Source: Bacteroidaceae bacterium (GTDB lineage: Bacteria > Bacteroidota > Bacteroidia > Bacteroidales > Bacteroidaceae). Taken from it: a DNA stretch of 32,973 bases. A program made the translations under genes and the position numbers. A model generated the notes under the pieces. The model saw only the letters and a list, made by a program, of their open reading frames with translations, was not told the DNA's origin and did not search any database. How positions within the stretch are numbered: position 1 is the stretch's first letter; each line of letters begins with the position of its first letter. This document shows, in pieces, positions 1,651 through 29,758 of the stretch. Location: positions 1 to 32,973 of the forward strand of contig JAILEU010000054.1 of the NCBI GenBank assembly GCA_024697785.1. The letters are read 5' to 3'.

Positions 1651-1669
1651 ATCTTCAAATCTTGAAGAT
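1651..1669. terminator. Short hairpin ATCTTCAA-ATC-TTGAAGAT overlapping the 3' end of the TPR regulator gene
   Basis: Perfect 8-bp inverted repeat with 3-nt loop at the stop codon; terminator role is inference. Confidence 0.35.
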
Positions 1670-3226
1670 ACTCAGGTAGGGCTCGGCGAGCTTGGCGCGA
1701 AGGCGATGCTTGTGCGAGCGGATGGTGGTGTCGGTAACGCCTGTGCAGATGGTCTGCGTGTAGGTGGAGAAGCCGAGGCGGCAGAGGAGCAGGCAGGTGA
1801 GCTCAGAGTCGCTGAGCGTGGGGCTCTGCTGGCGCAGCTCGTCCACGATGGGACGGAAGATGCGGAACAGCTCCACCTGCAGGGCGGCGGTGCGCTCGGA
1901 GGAGAAGGCGTCAAAGCCGCGTGTGCGGCTCAGGTGGATGGCGCTGAGCTCGTCGTTCCACGGGCTTTGCATGAACTGGTTGATGCAGGCGCCCAGCTGC
2001 TCCTCGAAATAGAGGGTGCTGTTCTGGTCCTTGGCACGGCGGCTGCGGCGCAGGGCCGTCAGGGCGATGAGCGTGCCGCCCACGAGGGCGACGAGCAAGG
2101 CGGCCATCACGCTGTGGCGGGCAGACTGACGGCGATGGACTTCCGCTTCGTAGCTGCGCAGCACACCCGCCATGCGCAGCTGATCGACGGAGTGGGCAAT
2201 GGTCTCCTTGAGGCTGGCGTAATATTGGGCATGACCGAAAGCACTCTCGAACTGTCCGCTCAGCGAGTCGAGCGAGGCGAGGGCGCTGGCGGTCGAGGCT
2301 TCGAGGTAGAGATTGTTCGTCGCACCTTGGCAAAGGCGAAGATAGTGGAGGGCTGAGTCGGGCTGACCGAGGGCTTTGTATGCCTGCCCCTTTAAATAAT
2401 AAGGAAAGAGCTTGTCGTCGCCCGTGCGTAACGACTCGGCCAGCGAGGCGTAGGCGAGGGCATCGGCGGCGTTGCCCCGACGGCGCGTGATGATGGAGAG
2501 CTGCTCGGCGGCGAGGGCTGTGCCGATGGGGTTGTCGATGGCGCGGCTCAGGGCGAGCAACGTCACGTAGTTGTCGTAGGATGCGTCCCATTGCCCCTTG
2601 GCCATCTGGCATTTGGCGATGCCTTCGAGCGGCATGATCATGCGCAGGCTGTCGCCCACGCGGACAGCACAGTCGTAGGCCTGACGATACCACGTCTGCG
2701 ACTCGTCGAAGAGATGCTGGTTGAAGAGGTGGTCGGCGATGTTCTGCGACGTGCGGCGCAACATCACCCAGTCCCTAAGCCCACGGAAGCCGTCGGATGC
2801 AGGCAGATAGGCCTCGACGGCACGGAAGTCGTCGCCCAGGTCGCGGCAGACGCTTCCGAGATAGAACTGCGAGAGCGCACGCAGCTCCTTGTTCCTTCCC
2901 GGACGGGCGTAATACTCGACGGCCGTCAGGATGAGCGAGTCGGAGGTGTGGGGGATGAGGCATTTGTCCGCAGCCTGCGTGCGAAGGAGGGCGTAGAGGG
3001 CGGCCTCCCCCTTACCCCTCCTAAAGGAGGGGAGACCAGTGGACTCGGAAGCCCTTCCCTTTAGGGGAGGGTTGGGTGAGGCTATGCTCTCCAGCTCACT
3101 CAGGGCGCGAGCGGGGTCGGCGTTGATGTAGGAACGTATCTCGTTCAGCTGACGGCGGACATCGGAAGCTGTTGCGACAGACGTTGTCATCAACAGGGCG
3201 AAGAGGATAAAAACGACACGCTTCAT
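1655..3226 (-). CDS. TPR-containing membrane-anchored regulator with C-terminal HTH-like domain
   Basis: Signal peptide, TPR-like helices, TM segment VMAALLVALVGGTLIALTAL, C-terminal LSDSELTCLLLCRLGFSTYTQTICTGVTDTTIRSHKHRLRAKL (LuxR-like HTH). Confidence 0.8.
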   Translation of the reverse strand: MKRVVFILFALLMTTSVATASDVRRQLNEIRSYINADPARALSELESIASPNPPLKGRASESTGLPSFRRGKGEAALYALLRTQAADKCLIPHTSDSLILTAVEYYARPGRNKELRALSQFYLGSVCRDLGDDFRAVEAYLPASDGFRGLRDWVMLRRTSQNIADHLFNQHLFDESQTWYRQAYDCAVRVGDSLRMIMPLEGIAKCQMAKGQWDASYDNYVTLLALSRAIDNPIGTALAAEQLSIITRRRGNAADALAYASLAESLRTGDDKLFPYYLKGQAYKALGQPDSALHYLRLCQGATNNLYLEASTASALASLDSLSGQFESAFGHAQYYASLKETIAHSVDQLRMAGVLRSYEAEVHRRQSARHSVMAALLVALVGGTLIALTALRRSRRAKDQNSTLYFEEQLGACINQFMQSPWNDELSAIHLSRTRGFDAFSSERTAALQVELFRIFRPIVDELRQQSPTLSDSELTCLLLCRLGFSTYTQTICTGVTDTTIRSHKHRLRAKLAEPYLSIFKI

Positions 3227-3329: not shown

Positions 3330-4022
3330 TTATGGGGTGCTGAAGCAAAAGTGCTCTATGGAATCGGGCGGCAGGAGGGGATAGGGGATGGGCAGCCGGG
3401 GCTCGGCGGGAGGGAGGAGGGGTGTGACGGAGGCGGCGCCGGGGGCGAAGTCGGGTAGGACGCGGCGGGCACCGAGGTAGCGGGCCTGGTAGTAAGGTTC
3501 GCTGAGATGGGAGATGATGACGCCTGTGAGGGCGGCGTGGATGAAGGAGAACGACTTGCCGCCCGGGTCGGGGCCGATGTAGATGCCGACGTGGCCGGGA
3601 GTCTGCGAGATGCGCCGTCCGCTGAACACCACGATGTCGCCCCGCTGCAGGTGTTTGATGCCCTTTTTCACGGGACGTCCCTGACGCCACTGGCCGCCGG
3701 AGGAGTGGCTGAGCGAGTAGCCGAACTTGCCATAGACATAAGAGGTGAAGCCCGAACAGTCGAACGACGCAGGGCCACGAGCGGCGTAGCGGTAGGGCTT
3801 GCCTAAGGACTGACGGGCAAAGCCGATGATGCTGTCGGCCGTGGCTGCGGCACGCAGGGAATCGGGGCTGACGCCCCGCAGCGTCGAGCAGGCGGAAAGA
3901 GACAGCATAAAGGCAAAATGAAAAATGAAGAATGAAAAATAGAAGGAAAGCCTCCCCCGTCCCCTCCTGAAGGAGGGGGGATTGGTTAGGGGTGAGGGGT
4001 TGGGGGTGGGCTTAACTTCCAT
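3330..4022 (-). CDS. NlpC/P60-family cell-wall hydrolase lipoprotein
   Basis: FDCSGFTSYVYGKFG (catalytic Cys), RGDIVVFSG...PGHVGIYIG (His) motifs; lipobox LSAC. ATG at 4020-4022 (the track's first codon at 4028 is TTG). Confidence 0.85.
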   Translation of the reverse strand: MEVKPTPNPSPLTNPPSFRRGRGRLSFYFSFFIFHFAFMLSLSACSTLRGVSPDSLRAAATADSIIGFARQSLGKPYRYAARGPASFDCSGFTSYVYGKFGYSLSHSSGGQWRQGRPVKKGIKHLQRGDIVVFSGRRISQTPGHVGIYIGPDPGGKSFSFIHAALTGVIISHLSEPYYQARYLGARRVLPDFAPGAASVTPLLPPAEPRLPIPYPLLPPDSIEHFCFSTP

Positions 4023-4077
4023 TTTCAATAATGTAGTTCTCAGAGGACGTGTTCGTTAAACATTAAACCAATTATTT

Positions 4078-7969
<3,892 letters not shown>

Positions 7970-8720: not shown

Positions 8721-8908
8721 ATGGCTTCAATCTTTATCATTAAACACGATTTCTTAATTCTTAGTAGTTCAGGAGTTCAGGAGTTCAGTAGTTCAGACAA
8801 TAGCTTTGCATGTTGATTTTCATCTTTAAAACTTTTTTTCTTAACTCTTAACTCTTAATTCTTAACTATTAAAACACTAAACACAAAACTCTAAACTCCT
8901 GACAATCG

Positions 8909-10210
8909 TCAGAGCGTATATTGCAGGGTGAGGCGTAGCGAGGGCGCCCAGGGATGGCCGGTGCGCGAGGTGGTGAGGCGCGTCTCGGTGAGATGATAGC
9001 TGAGGCCCGGCTGGAAGGCAAGGCTGACATGATGGCCGAGGTCGTAGCCGACGGTCATCTGTCCGCCGACGGCAAACTGCCAAGGACGTTCGTCCTGTCG
9101 CCATGTGCCGAGGCGGGCGCCAAGGCATCGTTCGACGGTGGTGCCGGCGCTGAGTGTGAGGGATAGCGCGCCCCGTCCGGCGAATCGCCACCCGGCGTAG
9201 AGCGGCAGGCCGAGGTACTGAACGCGCTGTTCGCGTGTGTTGGCAGGGGTGATGACCTGCGACGATAGGGTAGTCCACACGAGGCCTGTCTCCAGCACGA
9301 GGCGTTCGATGGGCTCGTAGGATATGCTGAGGCCCACGCTCAGCTCGGGACGGTGGTTGAAGACGTAGTTGCCTATGGTTGCGTAGGGGTTACTGGCGAA
9401 TGAAGGACCCTTCGCCGCAGGTGCGGCCATGGGGCGGCTGGAGTAGTAGTAATTGCCGTTCATGAGGGCCAGTGCTCCCGGCATGACGGAGGTGGTGCCG
9501 CCGCCAGCGCCACCACCCGGGATGCCGAAGGTGATGCGTCCGCGGCTCCGGCTCCGGGAAGCCTCCCCCGCCCCCTCCTGAAGGAGGGGGGACTGATTAC
9601 TTCCGCTCGCTGCTCCCTTCCCTTTAGGGGAGGGCTGGGGTGAGGCTTCTCCTCCGCTCGCTGCTCCCTTCCCTATAGTGGAGGGCTGGGGTGAGGCTTC
9701 TCCTCCGCTCGCGGCTCCCTTCCCTTTAGGGGAGGGCTGGGGTGAGGCTTCGGGCTGGGTTGAGGCTTCTCTGATGGCTGAAGTCATATTCTGCGCTACA
9801 ACGTTCGGGAGGATTTGCAATCCGGCCGCGTCGAGTAGAGGGATTTGCAATCCCTCGCCTGTAGCCTCCCCCGTCCCCTTCTGAAGGAAAGCCTCCCCCG
9901 TCCCCTCCTGAAGGAAAGCCTCCCCCGACTCCTCCTGAAGGAGGGGGGACTGATTACTTCCGCTGGTCTCCCCTCCTTTAGGAGGGGTAAGGGGGAGGCT
10001 ATCTGGTATGGCAAAGAACACCACCGCCAGCACGGCAGCTGCCGCAGCCGTCCATACGGCTACGCGCTTCCAGGGCACCGCTACGGGCGAGTGGCCGCCG
10101 GTGCCGCCCAGCTCCTTCTCGAGCCGTGCCCATCCCCCGTCAGGAGGCGTCATCTGCGCCCCCTTCATGCGGTCGCGCAGCCCATCCGTCCAATCTTTCT
10201 TCTGCTTCAT
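8909..10210 (-). CDS. Outer-membrane beta-barrel protein with N-terminal anti-sigma-like cytoplasmic segment and TM helix; low-complexity repeat-derived linker
   Basis: N-term MKQKKDWTDGLRDRMKGAQMTPPDGGWARLEKEL + TM VAVWTAAAAAVLAVVFFAI; C-terminal barrel-like strands (ELSVGLSISYEPIERLVLETGLVWTTLSSQ...LRLTLQYTL). Confidence 0.75.
   Translation of the reverse strand: MKQKKDWTDGLRDRMKGAQMTPPDGGWARLEKELGGTGGHSPVAVPWKRVAVWTAAAAAVLAVVFFAIPDSLPLTPPKGGETSGSNQSPLLQEESGEAFLQEGTGEAFLQKGTGEATGEGLQIPLLDAAGLQILPNVVAQNMTSAIREASTQPEASPQPSPKGKGAASGGEASPQPSTIGKGAASGGEASPQPSPKGKGAASGSNQSPLLQEGAGEASRSRSRGRITFGIPGGGAGGGTTSVMPGALALMNGNYYYSSRPMAAPAAKGPSFASNPYATIGNYVFNHRPELSVGLSISYEPIERLVLETGLVWTTLSSQVITPANTREQRVQYLGLPLYAGWRFAGRGALSLTLSAGTTVERCLGARLGTWRQDERPWQFAVGGQMTVGYDLGHHVSLAFQPGLSYHLTETRLTTSRTGHPWAPSLRLTLQYTL
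9562..9998. repeat. Cluster of GC-rich palindromic elements (GCCTCcccc...CCTCCTGAAGGAGG...CCCTTTAGGG...gggGAGGC), several tandem or partial copies
   Basis: Repeated CCCCTCCTGAAGGAGGGG and CCCTTCCCTTTAGGGGAGGG hairpins; translated in frame as EASPQPSPKGKGAASG / SNQSPLLQEGSGEAFLQEG. Confidence 0.9.
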
Positions 10211-10427
10211 AAATGGTTTAACGTTTAATGTTTAACGTTTAACGTTTAACGAACACGTCCTTTTGGTTAATGGTTAATGATTCATGGTTCATGGTTATCG
10301 TTTAACGAACACGTTCTCAGAACTATTTTTCTTAACTCTTAATTAAACTTCGTTTTTCTTCTGTCGCGACTCGGCATAGTTCAAACAAGTTTGAATCTGC
10401 TCTCGCTGCTCCATCGGTTCTTAACTC

Positions 10428-12160: not shown

Positions 12161-13603
12161 ATGAAGAAAGGGAAGATTCTTGTCGTTGACGACAACGCCA
12201 ACATCCGCAGCGCGCTCGAGCTCCTGCTGCCCGCCTACTTTGCCGAGGTGGAGCTGCTGCCGTCGCCCGCAGGGCTGCTGACGGCCGTCCAGAAGTTCCG
12301 CCCCGATGCTGTGCTGCTCGACATGAATTTTCATACCGACACCAACACCGGCGGCGAAGGACTCTTCTGGACAGGCGAGCTGAAGAAAGCCTATCCCCAT
12401 GTGCAGATTGTTCTCTTTACGGCATACGCCGACATCGCTCTGGCCGTCGAGGGCATGAAGCGCGGCGCGTTCGACTTCATCGTCAAGCCGTGGGAGAACG
12501 ACAAGCTCATTCAGACCCTGCGCGACGCCTGCGAAGCCTCACCCCAGCCCTCCCCTAAAGGGAAGGGAGCAGCGAGCGGAAGTAATCAGTCCCCCCTCCT
12601 TCAGGAGGGGTCGGGGGAGGCTTTCCTTCAGGAGGGGCAGGGCGAGGCTTCGGGCGAGGCACCGATGTTCTGGGGCAGCAGCGCGGCAATGGCCGAGATA
12701 CGGCGTACCGTGGCGAAAGTGGCACCGACGGATGCCACCATTCTCATTACGGGCGAGAACGGCACCGGCAAGGATGTGCTGGCCCGTGAAATCCATGCCC
12801 AAAGCCTGCGGTCGGCCGGGCCGATGGTGAGCGTCGATGCCGGTGCCATCCCCGAGACGCTGTTCGAAGGCGAGCTGTTCGGTCACGTCAAGGGCGCTTT
12901 CACCGATGCGCGCAACGACCATGCAGGCAAGTTTGAGCAGGCATCCGGCGGCACGTTGTTCCTCGACGAGATAGCCAACATCCCCCTCACGCTGCAGGCC
13001 AAGCTGCTGCGCGTGCTGCAGAGCCGCATGGTGACACGCGTGGGAGCCGAGGCACCTGTCCCCGTCGATATCCGCCTCATCTGCGCCACCAATGGAAACA
13101 TAGAGCAGATGGTGGGCGAGGGACGCTTCCGTGAGGACCTCTACTTCCGCATCAACACCGTCCGTCTCCATCTTCCGCCGCTGCGCGAACGGCCTGACGA
13201 CATCCTGCCTCTAGCCCGGCGATTCCTGAGGGTATATGCCCAGCGATACCATCGCGCCGTCACCGCCATCTCCGACGAGGCAGCCACCGCCTTGCGCCAC
13301 CATCCGTGGAACGGCAATATCCGCGAGCTGCAGAACACCATTGAAAAGGCCGTCATCCTTTCTGAAGGCAGCACGTTGCAGGTGGGTGACTTCCGTCTGC
13401 AGCGTCTCGCCTGCGGCGGGGCGAGGCGTCCCACCACGGACGACAAAGATCCGACGGCTGACCCGCTGACCATCAAGGAGTCTGAGGAACAGCTCATCCG
13501 CGATGCCATCGTCCGTTTAAACGGCAATCTCTCCTTGGTCGCCAGGGAACTGGGCATCAGCCGTCCCACCCTCTACAGCAAATTGAAAAAATACGACATA
13601 TAA
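12161..13603 (+). CDS. Sigma54-dependent response regulator (REC-AAA+-Fis HTH; NtrC family)
   Basis: REC KILVVDDNANIR / DAVLLDMNF; AAA+ GENGTGKDVLAREIH, GAFTDA (sigma54-contact GAFTGA-like), FLDEIANIPL; C-term LSLVARELGISRPTLYSKLKKYDI. Confidence 0.95.
   Translation: MKKGKILVVDDNANIRSALELLLPAYFAEVELLPSPAGLLTAVQKFRPDAVLLDMNFHTDTNTGGEGLFWTGELKKAYPHVQIVLFTAYADIALAVEGMKRGAFDFIVKPWENDKLIQTLRDACEASPQPSPKGKGAASGSNQSPLLQEGSGEAFLQEGQGEASGEAPMFWGSSAAMAEIRRTVAKVAPTDATILITGENGTGKDVLAREIHAQSLRSAGPMVSVDAGAIPETLFEGELFGHVKGAFTDARNDHAGKFEQASGGTLFLDEIANIPLTLQAKLLRVLQSRMVTRVGAEAPVPVDIRLICATNGNIEQMVGEGRFREDLYFRINTVRLHLPPLRERPDDILPLARRFLRVYAQRYHRAVTAISDEAATALRHHPWNGNIRELQNTIEKAVILSEGSTLQVGDFRLQRLACGGARRPTTDDKDPTADPLTIKESEEQLIRDAIVRLNGNLSLVARELGISRPTLYSKLKKYDI
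12536..12660 (+). repeat. Palindromic element inserted in frame in the response regulator REC-AAA linker
   Basis: gcctcaccccagccctcccctaaagggaagggagcagcgagcggaagtaatcagtcccccctccttcaggagggg..., same sequence as in the 8909-10210 gene on its coding strand. Confidence 0.9.
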
Positions 13604-13637
13604 TTTTATTGACTATTTGACGATTTACTTTTTTTTC

Positions 13638-13800
13638 GTTTAACGTTTAACGTTTAATGTTTAACGAACACGTCTGGCGCCTTCGGCGCAATTGATAATT
13701 GATAATTGAAAATTGATAATTATCCATGGTCCATTGTCAATTGTCAATTAACGAAGTTATCTCTAACCCCTAACCCCTAACCCCTAACCTCTAATTTTTA
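13638..13800. repeat. Composite intergenic repeat block A (TTTAACG heptamers, GCGCCTTCGGCGC hairpin, AATTGAT heptamers, CTAACCCC octamers)
   Basis: Near-identical modules recur at 18350-18600. Confidence 0.9.
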
Positions 13801-14827: not shown

Positions 14828-14981
14828 AACGTTTTCGTTAAGCCAAATGACCAAAGCAAAGCTCGCTTTACTTTGGCATGGCGAGAAAAAGAAGGATGAA
14901 ATCCAACGTTTTCGTTAAGCCAAATGACCAAAGCAAAGCTCGCTTTACTTTGGCATGGCGAGAAAACGAAGGATGAAATCC
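14828..14981. repeat. Two tandem copies of a 77-bp unit with internal hairpin
   Basis: aacgttttcgttaagccaaatgaccaaagcaaagctcgctttactttggcatggcgagaaaa(a/c)gaaggatgaaatcc starting at 14828 and 14905. Confidence 0.95.
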
Positions 14982-15033
14982 AACTAAGCCTATAAACCTT
15001 TTTTTATAGGCATCGTTTTTGTATTGTTTGAGT

Positions 15034-15127
15034 ATTTTTATAAACACGGGCCGCGTTTATATAAACAGGGGCCCTGTTTATATAAACAGGGGCGGCGTTT
15101 ATATAAACAGGGCCCCTGTTTATAAAA
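15034..15127. repeat. 21-bp-period array of GTTTATATAAAC palindromes
   Basis: Exact GTTTATATAAAC at 15055, 15076, 15097; degenerate copies at 15034 and 15118; spacers aggggccct/aggggcggc/agggcccct. Confidence 0.95.
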
Positions 15128-17088: not shown

Positions 17089-18348
17089 ATGGATAGAGTA
17101 ATAGAAAAGAAGAAAGGCCTGAGGGCGGCCTTCACGCGCAGAGCCCTCCCGTGGTGGGGACTGGGCCTGCTGGCCGTGCTGGTCGTGTGGGCTGTGGCCC
17201 GTCCCAGCCGAAGCACCCTCAGAGTGAAAAGCGACAGCATCATCGTCGGCGACGTCAGGAGCGGCGTGTTTAACGACTACATCCGTCTGGGCGGCACCGT
17301 GCAGCCTATGACGTCCGTTCAAATCAGCCCCACCGAGGGCGGCATCGTGGAGCGTATCGTGGCCGAGGAGGGTTCGATGGTTAAGGCAGGCGACGTCATC
17401 CTCGAACTCAGCAACGAGGGGCTCGACCTGCAGATTCTCAACTCAGAGGCCGAGCTGGCCGAAAAGGAGAACATCCTGCGCAACACGCTCATCTCCATGG
17501 AGCAGCAGCGGCTCACCGTCCGTCAGGAGCGCCTTCAACTTCAGATTGACGTGCGCCGCACGCGCCGTGCCTACGAGTCTAAGAAGCAGCTCTACGACGA
17601 GCAGCTCATCGCCCGCGAAGACTATCTGAAAGCCGAGGAAGACTACCTGCTGGCCCGCGACCGTCTGGAGCTCGTCACCGAGCGCGAGGCGCAGGACAGC
17701 CTCTACCGCAGCGTCGAGGTGGCCCGTATGCGCGAGAGCCTCGACAACATGCGCACCAACATGCTGATGATACGCCGCCGTAAGGAGAACCTCAGCGTCA
17801 AGGCGCCCATCAGCGGCGAGCTGGGCCTGCTCAGCGCCGTCCTCGGCCAGAGCATTGCCGCCGGCACGAAGGTGGGACAGATCAACGACCTGAAGAACTA
17901 CAAGATTGAGGCCCAGATAGACGAGCACTACATCGACCGCGTCACCCCCGGCCTGGAGGCCACCTTCGAGCGTCAGGGCGACCGCTTCTCCGCCCTCCTC
18001 GTCAAGGTCTATCCCGAGGTGCGCGAGGGCAAGTTCAAGGCCGACTTCCGCTTCAGCGGCCCGCAGCCAGACAACATCCGCACCGGCCAGACCTACTACC
18101 TCAACGTCCAGCTCGGGGCCAGCACCGAGGCTGTCATCATCCCCAAGGGCAGCTTTTTCCAGCAGACGGGCGGCAAGTGGATCTACGTCCTCACTCCCGA
18201 CGGCAGCCGCGCCGTCCGCCGCGACATACGCATCGGACGTCAGAACCCCCAGAGCTACGAGGTGTTCGATGGCCTCGCCCCCGGCGAACGCATCATCCTC
18301 TCCAGCTACGACACCTTTGGCGACAACGAAGTGCTGATAATTAAATAA
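17089..18348 (+). CDS. HlyD/MacA-type periplasmic adaptor (membrane fusion protein)
   Basis: N-terminal TM, GGIVERIVAEEGSMVKAGDVILELSN biotinyl-lipoyl-like motif, coiled coil, SVKAPISGELGLLSAVLGQSIAAGTKVGQI. Confidence 0.92.
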   Translation: MDRVIEKKKGLRAAFTRRALPWWGLGLLAVLVVWAVARPSRSTLRVKSDSIIVGDVRSGVFNDYIRLGGTVQPMTSVQISPTEGGIVERIVAEEGSMVKAGDVILELSNEGLDLQILNSEAELAEKENILRNTLISMEQQRLTVRQERLQLQIDVRRTRRAYESKKQLYDEQLIAREDYLKAEEDYLLARDRLELVTEREAQDSLYRSVEVARMRESLDNMRTNMLMIRRRKENLSVKAPISGELGLLSAVLGQSIAAGTKVGQINDLKNYKIEAQIDEHYIDRVTPGLEATFERQGDRFSALLVKVYPEVREGKFKADFRFSGPQPDNIRTGQTYYLNVQLGASTEAVIIPKGSFFQQTGGKWIYVLTPDGSRAVRRDIRIGRQNPQSYEVFDGLAPGERIILSSYDTFGDNEVLIIK

Positions 18349-18349
18349 A

Positions 18350-18600
18350 GTTTAACGTTTAATGTTTAACGTTTAACGAACACGTCTGGCGCCTTCGGCG
18401 CAATTGATAATTGGCTTCGCCTTCCTCCTTCGCACCTCGGCCATTCAAGCAAGCTTGATGGCTCTCGGTTTGGCGTCGGTTGATAATTGAAAATTGATAA
18501 TTATCCATGGTCCATTGTCAATTGTCAATTAACGAAGTTATCTCTAACCCCTAACCTCTAACCCCTAACCTAATTTCTAATTTCTAATTCCTAATTCCTA
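18350..18600. repeat. Composite intergenic repeat block B (as block A plus an inserted ~69-bp element at 18413-18481)
   Basis: Shares TTTAACGAACACGTCTGGCGCCTTCGGCGCAATTGATAATTG and ...ATTATCCATGGTCCATTGTCAATTGTCAATTAACGAAGTTATCTCTAACCCC with block A; the insert is the reverse complement of the TolC-internal repeat. Confidence 0.9.
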
Positions 18601-18605
18601 ATTCT

Positions 18606-24127: not shown

Positions 24128-24208
24128 AGGTAAACCTTCATGGATAATGGATAATTATCAATTATCAATTTTCAATTTTCAATTGCGCCGAAGGGCGCCT
24201 AAGTTATC

Positions 24209-26611: not shown

Positions 26612-26773
26612 ATAAACTGGTTTAACGGAGATGGTTTAAGGTTTAACGTTTAAGGTTTAACGTTTAACGAGGCTGGCGCTGGTGAAATCGAAGGACGTGT
26701 TCGTTAAACATTAAACGCTAAACATTAAACAAGAATCCGAAGGACGTGTTCGTTAAACATTAAACATAAGAAA

Positions 26774-29596: not shown

Positions 29597-29758
29597 TTTT
29601 TTAATGAAGAATGAAAAATGAAGAATGAAGAATAAATAGCTTTGCCAGCGGAGGAGTCGGCAGAGGAAAGGGAACTTTTCATGCAGGACATTTTATTTTT
29701 CATTCTTCATTTTCATTCTTTATTTTTCATTCTTCATTTTTCATTCTTCATTAAAAAA
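29597..29758. repeat. 31-bp perfect inverted repeat of the AATGAAG/AATGAAA heptamer family
   Basis: TTTTTTAATGAAGAATGAAAAATGAAGAATG (29597-29627) vs its reverse complement at 29728-29758. Confidence 0.95.

Follow-up and report, generated by a model that had tools for sequence, protein, structure and literature searches.

Coding palindromes, a mobile repeat within a signal peptide, heptamers near start codons, and a Bacteroidales MITE with tandem repeats have all been described. Rickettsia palindromic elements (RPE) are small dispersed palindromic repeats that are found in frame inside many protein genes (Delihas review, PMC2229807). In Yersinia, the mobile repeat YPAL/RU-2 carries a hydrophobic open frame that forms part of a predicted signal peptide, as in YPO1552 (PMC2229807). 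Direct repeats of the heptamer TAACTGA occur in Beggiatoaceae, Cyanobacteria, and some Bacteroidetes; their distribution is patchy, and they are often located next to start codons (PMC4679880). Finally, BrickBuilt, a MITE of Porphyromonas gingivalis, is built from 23-nt repeats. It is always intergenic, its frames are closed by frequent stops, and a promoter role has been proposed for it (PMC4596501).

In one Bacteroidaceae group, two kinds of scattered repeat appear to have become, repeatedly, the predicted signal peptides of secreted proteins. The preliminary description, in which repeat DNA was seen as co-opted into the secretion signal of one gene, is largely right. Judging by the names of related records, the group is rumen-associated. 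An instance can be found in the window, that is, the whole stretch of 32,973 nucleotides that was analyzed. Its NlpC/P60 lipoprotein gene (3330..4022, minus strand) encodes 230 amino acids from ATG 4022, or 232 if translation begins at TTG 4028. The preliminary description gave this open reading frame and its N-terminus correctly, apart from a length of 231. The protein belongs to the NLPC_P60 family (PF00877, 80.4 bits against a Pfam cut-off of 23, 1e-22), and the gene is under purifying selection, with a dN/dS of 0.08–0.22 for every pair among five orthologs.

The putative signal peptide, MEVKPTPNPSPLTNPPSFRRGRGRLSFYFSFFIFHFAFMLSLSA, and the lipobox Cys that follows it are encoded by repeat DNA at 3888..4022 on the minus strand, and orthologs have the same core and lipobox. 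Lipoproteins processed by signal peptidase II were recognized by a basic n-region, a hydrophobic core, and a lipobox of the form L-x-[AG]-C. At the sequence level all three are present, as RRGRGR, the core, and LSAC. The best 12-residue Kyte-Doolittle mean is 2.15, within the 1.6–3.2 spanned by 37 array peptides. The n-region is proline-rich and, at 26 residues, unusually long, which counts against the reading favored here. The repeat-encoded export signal is the sole one present in the gene. The only other in-frame ATG, at 3908, would yield MLSLSAC, in which six uncharged residues precede the lipobox Cys. This start, which the preliminary description had named as the finding that would overturn it, was rejected as not credible, since it provides neither a charge nor a hydrophobic core.

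Several repeat parts can be distinguished at this locus. The hydrophobic core is encoded by a heptamer array (TTCATTY) at 3909..3943, read on the minus strand as TCTATTT TTCATTC TTCATTT TTCATTT TGCCTTT, which amounts to three perfect units with decayed neighbors. The n-region is encoded by a GC-rich palindromic repeat, the minus strand of which reads NPSPLTNPPSFRRGRGRLS and whose homology spans about 3945–4007. The start codon (4022–4020) lies inside a decayed left heptamer arm, ATTGAAAATGGAAG (4016..4029, minus strand), that still pairs with the array (3919–3930). Upstream of the start is a piece of a third repeat family, GTTTAAYGTTTAACGAACACGTCC (4042..4068), which is absent in the orthologs and has similar text at 10216–10315. 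Chance does not account for either main repeat. The core of the palindrome is matched 15 times in the window, where 0.37 matches would be expected (0/100 shuffles); the 161-bp region is matched 55 times genome-wide; and the 20-base array pattern TTCATTYTTCATTYTTCATT, allowing at most one mismatch, is matched 369 times in the genome, whereas its reversed control gives 20.

The heptamer family does supply the core, as first described, with the amendment that it forms one arm of a larger inverted-repeat element, itself dispersed, whose other arm gives the start codon. This element has the layout [AATGAAR]n, loop, [YTTCATT]n, with its arms inverted in many places around loops that are mainly 41 or 62 nt long and share the text ATGTCCCGTATGCAG... 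GCAAAGCTATTTATT. Its tandem arms have no sharp ends. An intact intergenic copy with a 62-nt loop is found at 29601..29752. Read in one direction, the left arm is A-rich and contains ATG codons, the loop encodes, for example, MSRMQRSDYKA, and IYFSFFILHFSF is encoded by the right arm. All three frames of the right arm are open in the signal-peptide direction, and their translation is rich in Phe, Ile, Leu, and Ser; the opposite strand reaches a TGA in every frame within three units. Coding selection on the intergenic copies is not claimed: most loops are open, with lengths (41 or 62 nt) that are 21 apart, but loops of 58, 63, and 66 nt deviate.

The window contains many other tandem repeats. Further heptamer families (AATTATC, CTTAACT, GTTTAAC, CTAACCC, and others) are found at 1626–1653, 8839–8898, 10216–10297, 13637–13794, 18346–18604, 24140–24184, and 26619–26767. 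They lie mostly between genes, and period 7 is dominant. Octamer arrays, AGGAGTTC / CTGAACTC, flank a gene on both sides (7768–7968 and 8766–8796) and include inverted copies. At 14828–14984 and 15035–15124 there are a tandemly duplicated 77-bp segment, nearly perfect, and an array in which a 21-bp palindromic unit (TTTATATAAACAGGGGCCCCG) is repeated in tandem.

Orthologs of the NlpC gene were found in four genus mates, at 85–91% identity. In all four the antisense heptamer array forms the hydrophobic core, and the n-region is the element loop, for example MSRMQRTNKKAIYFSFFILHFSFMLSLSAC in G009. (The NlpC sequences of the MAG Tb.RUG.90 and of UBA1189 are those of G012 and G017.) The window species lacks the loop; in its place stands the GC-rich palindrome, which the four orthologs do not have here and which gives RRGRGR. 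Because the heptamer core is present in every ortholog found, the heptamer step predates the window species, and only the palindrome step is specific to it. The shorter ordinary signal peptide that had been expected in orthologs is thus not seen for NlpC itself.

Replacement of an ordinary signal peptide can, however, be observed in other genes. One example is a DUF4296 lipoprotein. Its signal peptide is ordinary, like MKRKLRNSLLAITAAMLTLVSC, in each of the 13 repeat-free sisters found, whereas the five repeat-bearing species all have an array core. Its n-region is the element loop in three of these species (of the 41-nt type in two, of the 62-nt type in the window species) and a palindrome-rich insert in the other two. 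This insert, GAGGGATTTATACCCCCTCT..., seen in L099/L138 (G012) and L137 (G003), differs from the window palindrome and is a third repeat family serving as an n-region. For an exo-endonuclease the window species keeps an ordinary signal peptide (MKNRKLLLTLLIPALLCAC), and four relatives have one derived from the array. A 5'-nucleotidase has an array-derived signal peptide in four of five repeat-bearing species and a decayed one in the fifth (G012); sisters such as G016, G005, G013, and G004 have ordinary ones.

The repeats might instead be untranslated, with the true start downstream and the array in the 5' UTR, where its frame would be open by accident since the array is stop-free in all frames. 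Several arrays that precede genes of cytosolic type (L276, L281, L309) do look like this, and the leaders form strong hairpins (z -5.75 in G012). As an account of the signal-peptide cases it is quite unlikely. NlpC has no usable start between the array and the lipobox Cys, and in DUF4296 there is no Met at all between the array and that conserved residue; the sister DUF4296 orthologs are lipoproteins with the Cys at the same place. Moreover, 15 of 40 arrays in G017 run in frame into secreted-type proteins.

This G017 census covered arrays with a TGY within 27 nt after them, read at 40 sites and judged by eye on the N-terminal sequence. Of these, 15 were classed as in-frame signal peptides, on ORFs of at least 200 aa, and roughly six as the 5' UTR of a gene of cytosolic type. 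Pfam matches identified GH16, SusD, PGA_cap, GH43, DUF4296, DUF4973, and Exo_endo_phos_3 proteins among the hosts of array signal peptides. An initial census based on a predictor recovered only 10 array cases among 80 predicted lipoproteins and missed known ones. Derivation of both the n-region and the core from repeat DNA, as first proposed, is therefore a pattern that recurs in orthologs and in other genes, and the case in the window is one of a few dozen across five genomes.

A likeness to repeats could also arise by coincidence, since signal peptides are of low complexity and AT-rich codons for F, S, I, and L resemble the heptamer. Some cases with short n-regions are indeed weak, for example MKIKDIFFSFFILFVSLLGLASC, which has two units. 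Taken as a whole, this reading is highly improbable, as both the homology of the loops and the restriction to one clade already contradict it. Full element loops with the conserved text ATGTCCCGTATGCAG...AAAGCTATTTATT are found inside N-termini. The exact 20-base array pattern occurs in quantity in five of 19 genomes of the genus and is absent from the other 14, and the predicted lipoproteins of two control genomes contain no arrays (0/12, a small control). Two apparent array signal peptides (MKKILPIFFIFHFSFFISQAQ) are also found in G098, a relative at the level of the order, and suggest that recruitment there was independent.

The position of arrays relative to genes was determined for 62 arrays in 0.97 Mb from four repeat-bearing genomes. 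There were 18 in sense orientation within the first 50 codons, a zone that makes up 4.8% of strand territory, 42 between genes, and two elsewhere in genes. The corresponding densities per 100 kb are 19.3, 11.5, and 0.13–0.14. The excess of N-terminal over intergenic arrays is only modest (1.7-fold, p=0.05), and the strong result is the near absence of arrays from the rest of genes. Own-genome stretches were partly picked on repeat-holding contigs, a choice that bears on total density but leaves the division among classes unaffected. Because genes were called by a home-made procedure that took the longest start, a few of the 18 N-terminal arrays are really 5' UTR. Those at L117 8059, L281, and L285 look like this, and L117 8059-9666 was rejected as an array signal peptide because it has an ordinary one of its own downstream.

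With 42 of 62 copies intergenic and inverted arms that fold strongly, the element could act mainly at the level of RNA or DNA, by placing the start codon in a long hairpin or through mobility, and its coding use would be a by-product. For Beggiatoaceae, a role in regulating translation has been suggested for heptamer repeats adjacent to start codons (PMC4679880). We consider this account unlikely, as many signal-peptide arrays lack the partner arm and it leaves unexplained the N-terminal density, the replacements in orthologs, and the frame bias of the palindrome.

This last bias concerns the GC-rich palindrome as an n-region module. It is present in 34 distinct copies, 28 of them in ORFs, and so falls, in function, in the RPE-like class of palindromes found repeatedly in frame inside genes. 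The basic frame (SFRRGxG) is used by five of five copies that precede a hydrophobic stretch near the N-terminus, compared with two of 23 interior copies, which mostly read SPLLQEGTGEA or PPSGGDGGG. The p value of 2e-4 is optimistic, since the copies are not all independent (L131 contains duplicates that are related to each other) and in L111, which is among the five, the palindrome is followed by a transmembrane-like stretch at residue 51 and not by a typical signal peptide. A second, independent combination of palindrome and heptamer is found in L303 of G017, MIMRTLLSPFSPPSFRRGWGRLFFLLFIFHSSLSVSAQ; its apparent G012 ortholog has an ordinary element loop.

More lipoproteins in G000 (L017/L127, L020, L028) have a palindrome n-region followed by an ordinary hydrophobic core, as in MNKKPFYSLHPSFRRGRGRLFFLFIPLLFAAC. 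Coding palindromes are common in the window genome. Two tandem units lie in frame at 12583–12650, in the linker between the receiver and sigma-54 parts of a response regulator (gene 12161–13603, plus strand); there the G009 ortholog, 93% identical, is shorter by nine residues, in frame. Palindrome clusters are also found within an outer-membrane-barrel-like gene (9556–9990 in 8909–10210, minus strand) and a TPR gene (3000–3085 in 1655–3226, minus strand).

Given that 7 is not divisible by 3, slippage of heptamers within an ORF might produce phase-variable exported proteins. The tracts do lie within coding sequence, and unit number differs between orthologs. Yet they are short (2–6 units) and imperfect, which should limit slippage, and every ortholog examined is in frame, so that phase variation is very unlikely. 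Another idea, the purging of His codons from in-frame arrays, was also dropped: A-to-T changes (His to Leu) were seen in five of 64 units compared with 2/71 and 3/46 in the other phases, which is not significant, and substitutions within arrays gave no clear excess of His-removing changes.

The best explanation is that the NlpC/P60 protein has a working, translated lipoprotein signal peptide made from repeat DNA, the element coming first and the palindrome later taking the place of its loop; we give this a probability of about 0.82. In an ancestor, a copy of the dispersed element, whose inverted arms consist of tandem heptamers and which abounds in one clade of the genus, would have come to lie at the gene start. 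The A-rich upstream sequence and the start codon would derive from one arm, the hydrophobic core from the other, and a short basic n-region of the MSRMQRTNKK type from the loop. In the lineage of the window species, the GC-rich palindromic repeat would then have replaced this loop, giving the n-region PSFRRGRGRLS. Insertion or copying most likely brings repeats to gene starts, where those supplying usable basic and hydrophobic leaders in frame are kept. Such retention is plausible given how loose the sequence demands on Sec signal peptides are: a sizeable share of random sequences can function as one. Translation from ATG 4022, acceptance of the peptide by Sec and signal peptidase II, and retention of the arrivals in frame through selection for export are inferences from these sequences. 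Some of the shared phase and frame may reflect copying of a single cassette and not repeated selection.

A further, tentative idea, which we think somewhat doubtful, is that the element is a portable secretion-signal cassette. With its start codon or codons, basic n-region, and hydrophobic core, it could confer export wherever it landed, or was copied, in frame upstream of an ORF. Together with the basic frame of the palindrome it might then be a spreading, mix-and-match supply of signal peptides for the clade.

To our knowledge, the origin and turnover of signal peptides are poorly documented. Here the step is visible between sister species, from ordinary signal peptides in repeat-free ones to repeat-encoded ones in the clade where the repeat has spread. 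The repeat-encoded signal peptides range over lipoproteins, glycosidases, SusD-like proteins, and others, so that dozens of natural fusions are available for asking if a repeat makes a new export signal, repairs a damaged one, or takes the place of an existing one. When genes are modeled in these genomes, intergenic-looking repeats near starts should be kept rather than trimmed. The open-licence literature contained nothing on heptamers and signal peptides in Bacteroidetes, on miniature repeats exapted as signal peptides, or on palindromes in Prevotella, and within it no report was found of repeats serving as signal peptides at such a scale.

Each described system shares something with these repeats. 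Like BrickBuilt, the element is a MITE-like element of Bacteroidales with tandem repeats, but it has heptamers and an open arm in place of 23-nt units that are always intergenic and closed in frame. It resembles the TAACTGA repeats in its tandem heptamers, patchy distribution, and position near start codons. That heptamer is a different one, however, nearly all intergenic, with one inverted set reported, and the term signal peptide is absent from the paper (PMC4679880). The palindrome behaves like RPE, a likeness of functional class with no homology claimed. The host is another, one frame is preferred at signal-peptide n-regions, and the palindrome is paired with a tandem-heptamer repeat. As with YPAL, the hydrophobic open frame of a repeat contributes to a predicted signal peptide. 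There, one small hypothetical exported protein was highlighted; here, many conserved protein families are involved, ordinary signal peptides are replaced, as seen in orthologs, and two repeat families are combined.
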